The notes under the pieces were generated by a model. That model was not told the DNA's origin. It worked only from the letters and a program-made list of their open reading frames with translations, and made no database searches. Shown one piece after another: positions 4,898 to 40,100 of a stretch of DNA of 40,920 nt; position 1 is the stretch's first letter, and every line of letters starts with the position of its first letter. Source of the DNA: an uncultured Clostridia bacterium (GTDB taxonomy: Bacteria; Bacillota; Clostridia; Christensenellales; Borkfalkiaceae); NCBI GenBank assembly GCA_947631195.1, contig CANRKK010000021.1, positions 1 through 40,920 of the forward strand. The letters are read 5' to 3'. A program made the translations under genes and the position numbers.

Positions 4898-4971
4898 TTC
4901 GCAAATAATAACCCCGAATATCCAATGTGTTTGAGTGGTATTTTGAGAAATGTTATGCATTTATAACTAAA

Positions 4972-5995
4972 TTAGAGCGAGCTTCCGCAACCGCAACCTG
5001 TGTTGCAACCGCAACCACAGTTAGAATAGCCGTAACCGTAGTATGCGCCTGTTACAGGGTTCGGTACGATAAACGAAGCCGTCGGGTAAGGACGAATAGC
5101 GTTTATGATATTTGTAGTCTGTGCTTGCTGACTAAGCTGATTGGTAAGTTGCAAGTTCTCGGTACGAAGCGCGTCGATTTTCTCGTTGCACAAGTAATCA
5201 AGAACGCGTTGGGTATTCATATTACCAGCCTGTATGATAGCAGCGGTGTTAGAAGCCGACTGACAAGCTACGTCCTTTATGTCGCCCTCGAGGGTGCAGC
5301 AGCATTGTGCAAGCTGAGACGAAAGTCCCTGTGTCGCAAGACGGCTTTCGTAACCGTTAGTGGTTATGCCTTGCTGTACGCCGAAGAAGCCCTGACACAA
5401 AGTGGATTGAAGAGCAGCATTACCGCTCGTAATAGTGTTGTTAAGAGCGTAAGTGCTATCGCAAATACCCTGCGAAATACCTCTTACAGCATTTTCAAGA
5501 TTGTTGAAATTCATATCTTGGCATAAGTCGCCACGTGTTAAAGCTCCTTGCATACCTGCACCTCCATTGCCGCCGTTGCCCCAGCCGCCATTGCCCCAGC
5601 CAAATACAAGGGCAATAACAATAATCCCAAGTATGTTATCGTAAAGGCTTTTTATCCTCTACTTCTATCACTTCATTTTGTGATAGTTCAGCATAGCTTT
5701 TCAAGTACTTGTAACTTAGCAAGTTAGTCAAGTATTTGTGCGGTCTCGTGGGTAGATTATATCTTTTCACTACCTATGCGTTGCCCCTGACTATACTTTG
5801 TATAGCCTTCGGTTCGGATTAGCCTCTCAGCCTTCCCGTTTAATACCGCATTTTTCAATATTAGTCACCTAATAAAGTGGCAGATGTCTACCATAGGAAA
5901 CTACCGTCGCCCCAACCATTGTTAGCATTGCCATTTCCGTTACCATTGTTGTTCATAGCAAGACCCGTAGCGAGGCCATCACTGTATCCTTCCAT
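4972..5995 (-). CDS. Cys-rich phage protein, 253 aa, interrupted by an intron
   Basis: Exon 1 is 5995-5890 and exon 2 is 5627-4972. The start has GGAG (6007-6010). Exon 1 gives a Gly/Asn-rich N-terminus; the unspliced frame ends in TAG one base past the splice site. Joined, codon 36 becomes TGG and the protein continues with IIVIALVFGWGNGGWGNGG, then MQGALTRGDLCQDMNF. Total coding length is 762 nt with no internal stop. The join rebuilds a hydrophobic segment (FLWWIIVIALVFGW), probably membrane-inserted. The end is Cys-rich (NCGCGCNTGCGCGSSL). From memory, uninterrupted homologues occur in gut Firmicute phages. The function is unknown; a virion or envelope-associated role is a guess. If unspliced, only the 193-aa part from 5553 would be read. 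Confidence 0.8.
5628..5889 (-). ncRNA. ORF-less group I-like self-splicing intron, 262 nt
   Basis: Removing it restores an exact reading frame. P1 is GGU|AG with CUGCC, with the last exon U in a U-G pair. The intron ends in G (5628). P2 is ATTAG-GTGA-CTAAT (5873-5860), with a GNRA loop. P3 pairs ATGCG (5851-5847) with CGCAT (5780-5776). P4 pairs CGGG (5838-5835) with TCCG (5818-5815); P5 is a 3-bp stem inside it. P6 is an 8-bp stem (5807-5789). P8 is GGTAG/CTACC (5774-5751), P9 TACTTG/CAAGTA (5734-5706), and a further hairpin is at 5686-5665. I could not assign P7, the guanosine-binding helix, with confidence. No homing endonuclease is encoded. Confidence 0.75.
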
Positions 5996-6031
5996 AGTTT
6001 TTTATTCTCCTTTATAAAATATATTTATACT

Positions 6032-6130
6032 TTACTTGCTTTTGCGCGCATTAAGCAAGGTAGTATCGTTATACTGATAGTTTGAGATAGTGTCATTTTT
6101 ACCAAATATCGCTAATATAGTTATCAGCAC
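6032..6130 (-). CDS. possible small membrane peptide, 32 aa, GTG start
   Basis: A frame opens with GTG overlapping the end of the preceding gene (GTGCTGA) and runs to TAA at 6032. The product begins with a hydrophobic stretch (MLITILAIFGKND) and ends polar and basic (LLNARKSK). No clear ribosome binding site; it would depend on coupling to the upstream stop. It fills an otherwise empty gap, which supports it weakly. Confidence 0.35.
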   Translation of the reverse strand: MLITILAIFGKNDTISNYQYNDTTLLNARKSK

Positions 6131-10875: not shown

Positions 10876-11653
10876 TCTCTACACTCCTGTAAAACTCTAC
10901 AAAAGCTCTTACTGCTTCTTTCAGCTCGTCAAGCTTTTCAATTGCATTCTCTTCCTCTTCGTCAAGGTCATTAGCGCGTTTCTCTGCTTCTGCTAATCTC
11001 TTTTTCAAGTCAGCAATTACTTTGTCCTTCTCTGCGCTTCTGTGTCTTTCCGCTTCAAGCTCGTTACAAGTGTTGGTATACTTGCTTATCATATCGGCAA
11101 ATACAGCCGTGGTCTCTTCTGCGCTCTTCTTTATATTCTCTATCGGTGCAATGTTGGGTTGCTCGTCAACTACCTTGATTTCTTCTTTCGGCTGTTCTAC
11201 TACCCTTACAGGCTCTACAACGGGTGTAGGCTCTGCTTCGTTTCCCCCATTATCATAGACGGGTGCATTCTCTTCTTGGTACTCGGCATTAATGAACCAT
11301 ACTTGTTCACCGTCTTTGTAAATCATTTCGGGGTAAAGTTCCTCTGCCTTTTCAGCAGAAATGAAACGATTGGAAGGCACGTGCCAACCTATAATCTTGC
11401 CGGACGCTGTTATGCAACGGTAATACTTCTTGTTGTTAGCGACCACTTCTTTGTATGCCTTTTCAATATCCGTAGCCGCCGAAACGTTTAACTTTTCGTA
11501 ATAAAGTGAGTTGTTCATTTTTCTTTTATCTCCTTTAATAAATAATTTTTTCAATTCAGATATGTTTGTTGGCAAATTCAATAACGACAAAAACGGTTTA
11601 ACTATTTTGTCCCAATTCTTAATAAGGAATAAGACGATCTCGCCTATATTCAT
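10865..11653 (-). CDS. coiled-coil protein, 262 aa (or 217 aa from internal start)
   Basis: The longest frame starts at 11653 with ATGA overlap to the holin-like gene. However, an internal ATG at 11518 has a much better site (AAAGGAGATAAAAGAAAA), like other genes here, so two products or the shorter form are possible. The shorter form starts MNNSLYYEKLNVSAATDIEK. Middle: Pro/Glu/Val-rich linker (PTPVVEPVRVVEQPKEEIK). C-terminal 90 residues: long charged coiled coil (VIADLKKRLAEAEKRANDLD). The longer form adds a hydrophobic N-terminal helix that might anchor it. Function unknown. Confidence 0.65.
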   Translation of the reverse strand: MNIGEIVLFLIKNWDKIVKPFLSLLNLPTNISELKKLFIKGDKRKMNNSLYYEKLNVSAATDIEKAYKEVVANNKKYYRCITASGKIIGWHVPSNRFISAEKAEELYPEMIYKDGEQVWFINAEYQEENAPVYDNGGNEAEPTPVVEPVRVVEQPKEEIKVVDEQPNIAPIENIKKSAEETTAVFADMISKYTNTCNELEAERHRSAEKDKVIADLKKRLAEAEKRANDLDEEEENAIEKLDELKEAVRAFVEFYRSVENEQ

Positions 11654-30971: not shown

Positions 30972-31490
30972 CTATTCGAACATATCGTCTTTTTGTTCTT
31001 GCTCACCCATAAGGCTTTCGCCTGTCTTTGCTTCCCTCGCCATTCGATATTCGCTTAATACCGTCAAGCCTAAGTCGTCAGCGAACTTGTTTATCGTTTG
31101 GCTTATCTTTTTAAGTTCTTCTGCGACGGGGCTGATTTTCGGATTTCCCTTGAAGTCAATGTAAGTGACCGCCTCGCCCTCGTTATGCCAAGTCTGTATT
31201 AGCCGATCTCGTATCGCTACGGAGATACAATAAGACTTTAACGCCTCTTTATGGCGGTTATTGAGCAGGTGGTATTTAGAGTTCTTGTCAAGTTCCAAAA
31301 CCTCGTTCCAAGCCTTTGCCGCCCCGCCTATACATTGTATCTCTTCGGGCATTACGAGCGGGCTGTCGCTACTCTGCATTATGCCGTGAACTTCCTCTAT
31401 GTCGCTAAACGGTTGCGCTTGCAAGGGCGGGTTTAGCTTTCGCCCTGCGTTCTTTCTTGCGCCGCCGCTTCTACCCTTTTGTCCCGCCAT
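30972..31490 (-). CDS. terS: terminase small subunit, P27 family, 172 aa
   Basis: Starts MAGQKGRSGGARKNAGRK, the typical basic P27-type N-terminus, then AAKAWNEVLELDKNSKYHLL and ALKSYCISVAIRDRLIQ helical core, and FKGNPKISPVAEELKKISQ, all usual for this family. It recognises packaging sites and loads the large subunit. It overlaps the HNH gene by 20 nt. Unusually, RusA, a Cys-rich gene, a promoter and a broken endonuclease separate it from terL. Confidence 0.85.
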   Translation of the reverse strand: MAGQKGRSGGARKNAGRKLNPPLQAQPFSDIEEVHGIMQSSDSPLVMPEEIQCIGGAAKAWNEVLELDKNSKYHLLNNRHKEALKSYCISVAIRDRLIQTWHNEGEAVTYIDFKGNPKISPVAEELKKISQTINKFADDLGLTVLSEYRMAREAKTGESLMGEQEQKDDMFE

Positions 31491-31866
31491 TGTCCTTACC
31501 TCCGTATTTATCCCATAATTGCTCGTTCGTTACCGTTGTATGTATTCGGCTATGACAAGTCGAGCATAACGCTTGCCACTTGCTTACGTCGCAAAACGAT
31601 TGCCAATCTCCATAACCGTGCGTATGGTGTACCGTCGTTGCAAGGGTATGTTTATCTTGCTTCAAGCACTCCTCGCACCATATATGCGAGAGTAGAAACG
31701 CTTTTCTATGCTTCGTCCACCAAGCCGTTTTGTACCAGTCTGCGTGTTCAGAAGTCGTCCCTCGCTTAATATACTGTTTCTTATGCTCCGAGCAGTAGAT
31801 ACAACCGCTTTCGGTGTAGTTGGTACAGCCCGCCGCAGAACAGATCGTTTTACGATAGTAAGCCAT
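31471..31866 (-). CDS. HNH endonuclease, 131 aa
   Basis: Two N-terminal Cys pairs (CSAAGC, CIYC), then CEECL, VHHTHGYGDW, and LCSTCHSRIH: a classic HNH ββα-metal site with zinc-binding Cys. In phages with P27 and HK97-like packaging, such an HNH protein encoded beside the small terminase is needed for DNA cutting by the terminase complex. AAGGAG precedes the start. Confidence 0.9.
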   Translation of the reverse strand: MAYYRKTICSAAGCTNYTESGCIYCSEHKKQYIKRGTTSEHADWYKTAWWTKHRKAFLLSHIWCEECLKQDKHTLATTVHHTHGYGDWQSFCDVSKWQALCSTCHSRIHTTVTNEQLWDKYGGKDNGGTKG

Positions 31867-33426: not shown

Positions 33427-33519
33427 GGGATTACGGCATATGAAATTATTATCTTGTAAATAAAGCCCTGTATACCTTATCTACTAATCAATTATACGCC
33501 ATAATCCCGTCTTTGTCAA
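33427..33519 (-). promoter_or_regulatory. sigma-A promoter with operator-like inverted repeat
   Basis: TTGACA (33514-33519), 17-nt spacer, TATAAT (33491-33496). The spacer contains GGGATTATGGCGT (33496-33508 on minus), and an imperfect inverted copy GGGATTACGGCAT lies at 33427-33439 on plus. One arm is inside the promoter and the other about 55 nt downstream, which suits repression by a looping or cooperative regulator. The direct repeat CGACATCAAT also occurs twice at about 33384-33426. Confidence 0.75.
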
Positions 33520-33529
33520 GTGTTTTATG

Positions 33530-33730
33530 CTATTTTTTTGCCTTTACCTTGCATTTTTCTAAGTATTCGATTAAATCGCTTTCGGATATATAAACATAAC
33601 CTTGCTTTACAGGATTAGGCTTATAACCCGTTATATCGCCCTTGCGAATACGCATTCTTAAAGCATTTGGCGATATGTGCAATAGCTTTGCTGCTTCTAT
33701 CACTGTGTACATTTTTTCTATTTTGTCCAT
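33530..33730 (-). CDS. excisionase-like MerR-type HTH protein, 66 aa
   Basis: YTVIEAAKLLHISPNALRMR, then IRKGDITGYK and YVYISESDLIEYLEK is the winged-helix layout of Xis/AlpA-type DNA-binding proteins. AAGGAG precedes the start. It is the last gene of its unit, just before the replisome promoter with the inverted repeat, so it is a candidate regulator of that promoter. With no integrase in view, a role in excision is uncertain. Confidence 0.8.
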   Translation of the reverse strand: MDKIEKMYTVIEAAKLLHISPNALRMRIRKGDITGYKPNPVKQGYVYISESDLIEYLEKCKVKAKK

Positions 33731-36808: not shown

Positions 36809-37600
36809 TTACATTGTAAACATACTTGTTTGTCCCGAAGCGGTGATATTGTTTAGCCTGTCTTTGGCTATCTTGTACCACCTCTCGTCAATCTCAAATC
36901 CTATATACCGTCTGCCAAGGTTTTTGGCGGCTACAAGGCTTGTACCACTTCCAGAGAAGCAATCAAGCACTATATCGCCAACTTCCGTGCTATTGAATAT
37001 ATGGTCTTGCACGAACTTTAACGGCTTAATTGTGCTATGCTCGAAACGGTCTTTGTCGGTCTTGTTTGTCGGTGAAATGTAATACTTACTTTTAGTTTCA
37101 AAAGTACCACCTATCTTTGTTTTGCCTTCTTCTCTAAACATAAGGCAATATTCCGTATCGGATAGGTATTTACCGTTGCAAGTCGGTATCGGATTACTCT
37201 TATGCCAAGTTAGCAACTCAAAACGGCAATCGTGCTTACCGACAAAGTATTCCATAAGTGGGAGTATCTGCAACTTACTGCACCATATATAACAGTAAAT
37301 CGCCTTGCATACTCGCACAAACTCATCAAGAATAGAAAAGTCTATGCCGTAAGATATATTATCAAGATTAGTCATACTTTTCATTATAGACTTTGCTTTA
37401 TCCGTGCTTTGTGTATTTGTGCATATTTGCTCATATTCTTTATGATAATCTCGTTTCTTCTCGCCAAAGCAGCCACCGCCGCCGTTATTTTCTATATCAT
37501 AAGGTATATCGCAATACACGAGGTCGATTGACTTATCGGGTATGTCCTTTATAGCCTCGTAACAGTCGGCAAGGTATATGTTGTTAGGTTCGTAGGTCAT
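36809..37600 (-). CDS. beta-class DNA methyltransferase (N4-C or N6-A), 263 aa
   Basis: Motif IV is CDIPY at about 30-34 (Asp-Ile-Pro-Tyr in place of the common Asp-Pro-Pro-Tyr), near the N-terminus, and motif I is VLDCFSGSGTSLVAA near residue 215; this order defines the beta class. IKPLKFVQDHIF and YIGFEIDERWYKIAKDRL support the fold. It would use S-adenosylmethionine to methylate phage DNA, perhaps against host restriction. No restriction enzyme gene is adjacent. Overlaps the upstream gene by 4 nt. Confidence 0.9.
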   Translation of the reverse strand: MTYEPNNIYLADCYEAIKDIPDKSIDLVYCDIPYDIENNGGGGCFGEKKRDYHKEYEQICTNTQSTDKAKSIMKSMTNLDNISYGIDFSILDEFVRVCKAIYCYIWCSKLQILPLMEYFVGKHDCRFELLTWHKSNPIPTCNGKYLSDTEYCLMFREEGKTKIGGTFETKSKYYISPTNKTDKDRFEHSTIKPLKFVQDHIFNSTEVGDIVLDCFSGSGTSLVAAKNLGRRYIGFEIDERWYKIAKDRLNNITASGQTSMFTM

Positions 37601-39071: not shown

Positions 39072-40100
39072 TTAGTACCTTATAAAGTCTTTGCCGTATA
39101 GTTCGTTAAGCGTATCAAAGACGTGCTTCATACCTAAGCCTTTTTTGGTCGGTTTCCATAAGCCGTCGCTGTCATACGCTCCACCGCCCAAACAATACTC
39201 GTACTGCCTTGGGTGGGTTTTCTTCAACCGTTCAAAACGTCCCTCGCCTTTCTTTTCCAAGTGCGCTCCAAAAACGCAGAATATACAGCCTGTCCTACTT
39301 GCCCCTGTCGTTTTGAGTTTACAGCCGCAATCGCAAAGTAGATTATCGTACTGTACGCCGTCATTGTCGTAAACCACGTCGCCGTAAACGCTTGCTATTG
39401 GCAAGTTATATTCACGGATATAGGCGAGAACGTCTTGCTCCGTCCAAAAGGAAAGCGGTTTGCTCTTGCCTGCTTCAAAAGCATTACACCCTGTTTTGAG
39501 CCACGCTTGTTGTCGTCTTTCGCTTTCTTCGGCAAGCAAAGCAACAAATGGGACTTTCTCGGTCTTCCGTTCGTGTTCGTCTAACGGCTTTTCTTTCATT
39601 ATTCCGCAACACTTATCACTTATATTAAAATCTACTTCTATCAATGATCGCCACTTTGCGTATCTATCTTCACAATATCCGCACGGCTCGCCTGTCCGAC
39701 AATCTAATCCTTGTATAGCGTTCATAGCCCATTTTCTCTGCTCTTTGACGCTTCGTATCATCTTACTAATATTCTTACTTATAATCGGATAGCCGTACTT
39801 GCTTATAACTTCATCAAAGCGCATTTTAGGTCGGAGTATCGTTACATTATCAAAGGTCTTTACAAACGACTGTATTTCGGGATATTCCAAGCCCGTATTG
39901 ACGAACACTGCTTGTACGTTCGGGTAGAGTTGCCTTACTAAGTGAAGTAAAACCGTGCTGTCCTTGCCACCGCTGAAAGATACGCAAACGCCGTCCTCGC
40001 CGTAGTAGTTCACCCACTCTCTTATACGTTGCTTCGTCTTACCTATCTTAACGTCAAGCGGCAAGGCTTGAAGCATTCTCAATTCATCTATTGTTGGCAT
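39072..40100 (-). CDS. PAPS reductase-like PP-loop ATPase, 342 aa
   Basis: SFSGGKDSTVLL at about 41-52 is the PP-loop (SGGKDS) of PAPS reductase/ATP pyrophosphatases. Further motifs: VNTGLEYPEIQSFV, RPKMRFDEVISKYGYPIISK and a lower domain with Cys groups (KCCGIMKEKP, CDCGC, RTGCIFCVFG) that may hold an iron-sulfur cluster. DndC, which puts sulfur into DNA, belongs to this superfamily, but DndA/B/D/E are missing here. Many phages carry a stand-alone copy of unknown role. AAAGGAAGGTAAGTA precedes the start. Confidence 0.85.
   Translation of the reverse strand: MPTIDELRMLQALPLDVKIGKTKQRIREWVNYYGEDGVCVSFSGGKDSTVLLHLVRQLYPNVQAVFVNTGLEYPEIQSFVKTFDNVTILRPKMRFDEVISKYGYPIISKNISKMIRSVKEQRKWAMNAIQGLDCRTGEPCGYCEDRYAKWRSLIEVDFNISDKCCGIMKEKPLDEHERKTEKVPFVALLAEESERRQQAWLKTGCNAFEAGKSKPLSFWTEQDVLAYIREYNLPIASVYGDVVYDNDGVQYDNLLCDCGCKLKTTGASRTGCIFCVFGAHLEKKGEGRFERLKKTHPRQYEYCLGGGAYDSDGLWKPTKKGLGMKHVFDTLNELYGKDFIRY

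Follow-up and report, generated by a model that had tools for sequence, protein, structure and literature searches.

The window, by which we mean the whole stretch of 40,920 nucleotides analysed here, is one contig of a source genome of 2.34 Mb in 81 contigs. On its minus strand, to which the coordinates of the gene, its insert and their parts refer, lies a Cys-rich phage gene in two exons: exon 1 (5890..5995; 106 nt), whose ATG begins at 5995 and follows, as read from the sequence, a ribosome-binding-like AAAGGAG at 6007..6013; and exon 2 (4972..5627; 656 nt). The same-strand neighbours are phage genes for tail fibre, large terminase, portal, head protease, capsid and tape measure, as well as for small terminase, replisome organiser, ERF and Gp157. 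For exon 2 there is a match to phrog_16490, of unknown function, but none to Pfam at E 0.001; of 4417 candidates, 3767 are its homologues with E 0.001 or better. The sole HNH match in a Pfam scan of 47 window proteins is a protein at 31471-31866 (minus strand; PF01844, score just below the cut-off), whose gene adjoins that of the small terminase and whose role is probably in packaging and not in homing. The window also holds a phosphoadenosine phosphosulfate reductase-like gene (39072-40100, minus strand) and a DNA methylase gene (36809-37600). Just upstream of the Cys-rich gene, a preQ1-II riboswitch match at 5999-6089 (minus strand; 19.3 bits at a cut-off of 47, E 1.9) is most likely due to chance.

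The two exons are separated by 262 nt (5628..5889). As an earlier note on this DNA had it, removing them joins 106 and 656 nt into a single frame of 762 nt, i.e. 253 codons and a stop. Left in place, they end the frame at the 5' splice site, again as that note had stated: the stop is a TAG straddling the exon/intron border (T is the last exon base and AG the first two intron bases), and the only product encoded by the unspliced message is a peptide of 35 residues. The gene also exists in an uninterrupted form. P0002, a predicted homologue of 252 residues on a contig of 1929 bases, matches exon 2 with 91% identity over its full length, aligns with exon 1 at residues 1-35, and reads ...GWGDGSFLWWIIVIALVFGWG... 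unbroken across the W35-W36 junction, to be compared with ...GWGDGSFLW/WIIVIALVFGWG... at the exon joint of the window. The earlier note had named homologues that code for the 262 nt as part of the evidence that would speak against an intron; this close relative is instead without them, and they are therefore an insertion. The insert ends in GAUAACAUACUUG (5628..5640), with a terminal G at 5628 that the note had also recorded, and the exon junction to which it leads is exact and in frame in the uninterrupted homologue.

The stretch 5620-5905 (the insert with short flanks) is predicted to fold at -75.5 kcal/mol, against -56.1 +/- 4.6 kcal/mol for shuffled sequences (z -4.2), and 0 of 200 shuffles fold as well. 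Relatives were compared in alignment A1, made with MAFFT blind to structure from 37 compact introns; its rows were chosen by hand, with L110 dropped, from two selections, one of 82 candidates in 203 sequences (the window and its copy L202 included) and one of 35 (32 without near-duplicates), and comprise only members without an endonuclease in the 5' half. Applied to A1, the structure derived from the window gives standard pairs in 81.8% of 1955 cells, versus 63.4% after shuffling; changes on both sides occur in 44 of 55 pairs, and the covariation score is 0.473 versus 0.161, with 0 of 500 shuffles as high. With slid partners at most 48.0% of cells are paired, and the score is at most 0.178. 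RNAalifold, unprompted, draws P3, P4, P6, P7.1, P8, P9 and P9.1 on A1, with double changes in 38 of the 40 pairs of its structure.

Read from the 5' splice site, the helices are as follows. P1 pairs the exon side UGGU (5890..5893) with the internal guide sequence GCCA (5878..5881), and U5890 takes part in the U.G pair at the splice site that had already been noticed in a P1-like stem; a guide matching the exon and an exon U in a wobble pair are thus both present, and the predicted fold adds 2 intron-internal pairs to the 4 bp of exon:guide pairing. The guide side of P10, AUCU (5882..5885), as read from the sequence, can pair with GGAU at 5624-5627 of exon 2. P2 (5859..5874), a hairpin with a GUGA loop of the GNRA type, is taken from the predicted fold and the sequence and lies outside the alignment. 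P3 joins UGCGGU (5845..5850) to ACCGCA (5739..5744), with changes on both sides in 6 of 6 pairs and 82.1% of cells paired, its innermost pair being unpaired in 22 of the 37 sequences; a P3 drawn as AUGCG/CGCAU was dropped, as it uses a strand of P7 and the covariation among homologues favours UGCGGU/ACCGCA. P4 (CGGG, 5835..5838, with UCCG, 5815..5818) and the P6/P6a hairpin (5786..5812) are seen both in the A1 covariation and in the RNAalifold structure. P5, a predicted hairpin with a GAGA loop (5821..5832), fits A1 weakly and is absent from that structure. P8 is a stem-loop (5702..5738) with RNAalifold pairs; the window's own P8 pairing fits only 38.5% of A1 cells because the length of P8 varies. 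P9 (5665..5686) has 81.1% of cells paired and both-side changes in 5 of 7 pairs, and P9.1 (5641..5662), with the conserved loop region GAUAAAAAGC, covaries in A1. All helices of the earlier note (P2-P6, P8 and P9) can therefore be drawn; covariation bears out P3, P4, P6, P8 and P9, with the reservations just given for P5 and for the window's P8.

Between the 5' strand of P7 and the 3' strand of P3 the window has an extra hairpin, P7.1 (5751..5774), with 99.5% of cells paired and both-side changes in 4 of 5 pairs. Such a P7.1-type hairpin is known from the introns of T4, SPO1, Bastille-type phages and Twort, and marks subgroup IA. The earlier note had left the subgroup open; we place the intron as IA-like on the strength of P7.1, and, as no separate P7.2 is seen in the window, the placement stops at IA and does not extend to IA1, IA2 or IA3.

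The guanosine site of group I introns lies in P7, a helix of six pairs from which a single nucleotide bulges. The earlier note had left this helix unassigned. We now assign it to A-(C)-GCAUA (5775..5781), with the bulged C and with the guanosine-site G at 5779, and to UAUGC-U (5690..5695): six pairs around a single bulge, with the G-C pair of the guanosine site, covarying over 135 sequences. These sequences derive from 158 distinct 3' ends, 7 of which had no P7 3' strand by pattern; of the remaining 151, the window among them, all but 16 could be given a 5' strand. The 5' strand was assigned by its context and the neighbouring P7.1 hairpin, not by P7 pairing, and as the search pattern fixes the guanosine-site G-C and the last A-U, the test bears on the other P7 pairs. 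In 132 of the 135 sequences there is no mismatch in the three inner pairs, the other 3 having mispairs in the inner helix; the outer pair is complementary in all 135, where it is either A:U with a bulged C or G:C with a bulged A. The commonest versions are A-(C)-GCAUA/UAUGC-U (66) and G-(A)-GCAUA/UAUGC-C (40), followed by G-(A)-GCGUA/UACGC-C (10), A-(C)-GCGUA/UACGC-U (6) and A-(C)-GACUA/UAGUC-U (5), with others occurring singly. Since the P7 consensus of Rfam RF00028 is GACUA/UAGUC, the two pairs beside the guanosine site are exchanged in most of these sequences, and this exchange may be the reason why no P7 was found at first reading. In A1 itself P7 is invariant because the rows were picked on its 5' strand. 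With P7 in place, the group I core is complete: the P3/P7 pseudoknot, P4-P6 (P5 being its weak member) and P8.

A covariance model was built from A2, an alignment obtained from A1 by leaving out the window, three loci of the same gene, and five more rows that were long or divergent; none of its 28 rows lies in the Cys-rich gene. The model finds the window intron at 5632-5858 with 174.6 bits and E 2.8e-46, a strong match, although to a model of the intron's own family only. The lack of a covariance match, which the earlier note had listed as evidence that would refute an intron, is thus not what we observe. A second match at 33445-33537 (11.1 bits, E 0.15) was taken as chance. In the source genome 5632-5858 alone was matched, with 150 of 527 candidates scored, and a DNA search likewise gave one copy; under stricter filters 4 of 200 related genomes, the source genome included, have a match. 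The model recognises 10 of 10 other same-site loci and 0 of 27 other loci with homologues of the gene. A distant blastn search with 4900-6100 against phage records returned 24 records, 13 of them Staphylococcus phages, and 19 of the 20 matches listed lie in the intron; of 8 records opened, 6 carry annotation, and 4 of these show an endonuclease next to the match. Pattern scans of viral contigs found the core in 63 stretches and the 3' end in at least 120, and members of the family lie in different genes with the same RNA core.

The Rfam group I model, which the earlier note had proposed as a check, was silent. RF00028 has no match in the window at gathering score, nor at E up to 10 around the insert; the loci of 8 phage relatives are likewise without a match at E up to 1, and at gathering score no family intron is found in 16 loci (L019 belongs to both sets). 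At E up to 1 it also misses the td and nrdB introns of T4, annotated as group IA in the T4 record, and its silence is therefore weak evidence; as both T4 introns contain ORFs, they are an imperfect control. This control likewise weakens the idea, which we had considered, that the silence is the sign of a hidden class: in practice a match to RF00028 is not a defining feature of group I introns, and its blindness is real, yet not peculiar to this family. The T4 td and nrdB introns are not matched by our family model either. The available text of PMC11878797 calls the Rfam group I model incomplete, and that of PMC11835236 describes a large intron database seeded with the same model. On one viral contig of the 16-locus scan (L030, 247-886) a tmRNA gene is directly followed by a group I intron, distinct from the family intron, that RF00028 does match, with 68.7 bits.

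Of immediate interest is the recurrence of the intron at one codon. The same family occurs in the same gene at 12 distinct loci, the window plus eleven other viral or bacterial sequences, and at the same Trp codon wherever the junction is visible. Seven of these (L024, L038, L043, L059, L060, L086 and L125) come from 182 loci collected with DNA patterns of the intron, and L019 from a blastn match spanning the intron 3' end and the start of exon 2, its splice site being set by eye; in all eight the same gene family lies beside the intron (tblastn E 2.9e-4 or better). From 33 loci collected with protein patterns L209 and L216 were added, and from 80 viral loci kept out of 270, L304 and L305, which are identical over the 2 kb compared and count as one; because the 80 are the best protein matches, which disfavours interrupted genes, same-site frequencies are biased. 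Outside the window the 3' junction is in frame in nine loci (L019, L043, L059, L060, L086, L125, L209, L216 and L304), and in L024 and L038 the intron is seen in the gene neighbourhood only. The 5' junction is visible in 11 of the 12 loci, L125 being cut off, and in 11 of 11 a stop codon straddles it, the exon T and the first two intron bases forming TAA, TAG or TGA; a purine-rich intron start could produce such stops without selection. Over the same 11 loci the exon:guide pairing extends from 3 to 7 bp, with 6-7 bp in 8 of them and 4 in the window. Swapping guides between loci lowers the pairing, the observed sum being reached by 50 of 20000 permutations with kinship ignored. In a tree of 63 cores, made without L019, L038 and L125, the same-site introns cluster, since nine of them need 4 label changes versus 8.6 when labels are shuffled (0 of 500 as low), a pattern compatible with one origin as well as with several. 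In L125 a second intron-like match (11131-11328, minus strand of the locus) lies at another point of the same Cys-rich gene, where the protein match breaks near residues 145-153; its P7, by eye, is the canonical GACUA/UAGUC.

Several relatives at this site carry a gene within the intron. HNH_3 (PF13392) was found in 5 of 5 same-site intron ORFs scanned (L024, L038, L086, L209 and L216; E 5.8e-9 or better), all of them in the P8 region; by eye, an ORF like these is also present in L125, and a short remnant in L043. The window, L019, L060 and L059 showed no endonuclease ORF, and the window copy, which the earlier note had rightly described as ORF-less, accordingly has no homing endonuclease gene in its loops.

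Comparative analysis of the sequence thus confirms the 262 nt at 5628-5889 (minus strand) as an ORF-less group I intron, and we are highly confident that it belongs to a mobile family, as an IA-like, predicted self-splicing member that itself lacks an endonuclease gene. The attack of guanosine followed by that of exon 1 is established group I chemistry. In the window, guanosine would dock at the G-C pair of P7 and cut after U5890, at a site held by the guide GCCA; the freed exon 1 would then attack after G5628, with P10 (AUCU:GGAU) aligning exon 2, and the exons would be joined in frame at a Trp-Trp-Ile-Ile site. The stop codon across the junction may keep ribosomes out of the intron. Because same-site relatives have a gene for an HNH endonuclease in P8, we regard the site as a homing site: their HNH proteins most likely cut the uninterrupted site, into which the intron is then copied. 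The window copy would represent an endonuclease-free stage, after loss or before gain of the gene, and may have been inherited or spread in trans.

Some features count against this reading: the P1 of 4 bp, the silence of RF00028, P7 inner pairs unlike its consensus, the poor fit of the window's P8, and the weak P5 and innermost P3 pair. One alternative is that the intron has decayed and no longer splices, the gene of this phage being truncated after W35. Such decay would agree with an exon:guide pairing shorter than in 8 of 11 same-site loci, with the lack of an endonuclease, and with the origin of the window as a contig of a genome bin. We nevertheless consider it unlikely, as the core helices pair in the window sequence, P1 gains its two intron-internal pairs in the predicted fold, and exon 2 is open over 217 residues with 91% identity to P0002, which would be expected if selection acts on the product of splicing. 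The insert could instead be a translational bypass or frameshift element, whereby ribosomes would skip the 262 nt on unspliced RNA; in favour of this there are only the stop at the junction and the structure of the insert. Such an element is at odds with a family that keeps one RNA core across different genes, with a P3/P7 pseudoknot as in group I introns, with a guide sequence matching the exon, and with HNH genes in the relatives, and we give it hardly any credence.

The insert might also be the remnant of a non-autonomous IStron, a group I intron fused to the end of an IS605/IS607 element and moved by transposase. According to the available text of PMC4227781, the IStron ribozymes CdISt1 and BcISt1 are of group IA with P7.1, like the window intron, whose conserved 3' sequence also speaks for this reading. 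The same text describes IStrons with P7.1, P7.2 and a transposon half, whereas here we find one P7.1, 262 nt without a transposase ORF, HNH endonucleases in the same-site relatives, and insertion at one fixed codon of one gene family in 12 loci; its 3' end is CUUG, as against TCAG in group A IStrons, the group that this comparison covers. An IStron remnant is therefore very improbable, if slightly less so than bypass.

As a group I intron of a mobile family, the insert belongs to a kind that is well known. The phage group IA introns (T4 td and nrdB, the DNA polymerase introns of SPO1 and Bastille-type phages, and Twort nrdE) likewise have a group I core, a protein-coding host gene and an endonuclease in a loop, as the T4 record and the available parts of PMC3984707 and PMC11878797 describe. 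Those and the available parts of PMC7886860 place phage introns in polymerase, reductase, terminase, capsid and primase genes. Most known phage group I introns lie in polymerase, reductase and terminase genes, whereas the one in the window interrupts an uncharacterised Cys-rich gene, for which, in line with the earlier note, no intron is named in the literature titles and abstract openings searched (subscription journals falling mostly outside). The family also differs from the known phage IA introns in its P7 inner pairs, which are CA/UG or CG/CG, not AC/GU, in most of the 135 sequences. New in the present case are the gene that hosts the intron, the site at which it recurs, and a P7 with GCAUA/UAUGC in place of GACUA/UAGUC. 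The same covariance family includes introns of Staphylococcus phage 6ec, crAss-like cr6_1, Listeria phage LIS04, Alicyclobacillus phage MMB025, Clostridioides phage pCD1602_4 and bajarodcaudo virus 2 (best match of each at E 9.6e-24 or better). In the last of these (L019) both the gene and the codon are those of the window; in the others the neighbourhood, where annotated, is a different one (by the tape measure gene, in DNA polymerase, or near terminase). For cr6_1, 6ec, MMB025 and LIS04 the annotation shows an endonuclease ORF next to the intron; pCD1602_4 is without annotation.

The host gene has thousands of homologues but no known function, and the recurrence of introns at one of its codons suggests a degree of conservation sufficient for a homing target. 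Rfam-based surveys are likely to miss the family, as RF00028 missed T4 td; counts of phage introns, and likewise calls of split genes, may therefore be too low. The same-site copies with and without an endonuclease form a natural series for homing and loss, and the P7 variant offers a test of what the guanosine site tolerates. Tentatively, and with more doubt than conviction, one may go further: the family would then be a large and widespread clade of phage introns unseen by Rfam-seeded surveys, and its swapped P7 pairs (C-G, A-U for A-U, C-G, with the G-C of the site kept) in most members would define a distinct IA subgroup. The conserved Trp codon, in a hydrophobic segment of a very common phage gene, would serve as a standing homing site, and the stop at the junction would tie expression to splicing.

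Three further loci deserve mention. In a faecal phage contig (L012, 1470-3587) three matches to the family model fall within 2.2 kb and represent several introns or intron halves close together. In Listeria phage LIS04 (L018, 2478-2688) the match lies upstream of an ORF with a Hint domain and of the large terminase gene, with an intein-like ORF still further upstream. In the staphylococcal phage vB-SscS-F1 (L017, 2484-3651) the match falls between two ORFs that are both annotated as major tail protein; the annotated stretches of L017 and L018 list no intron feature at these matches.
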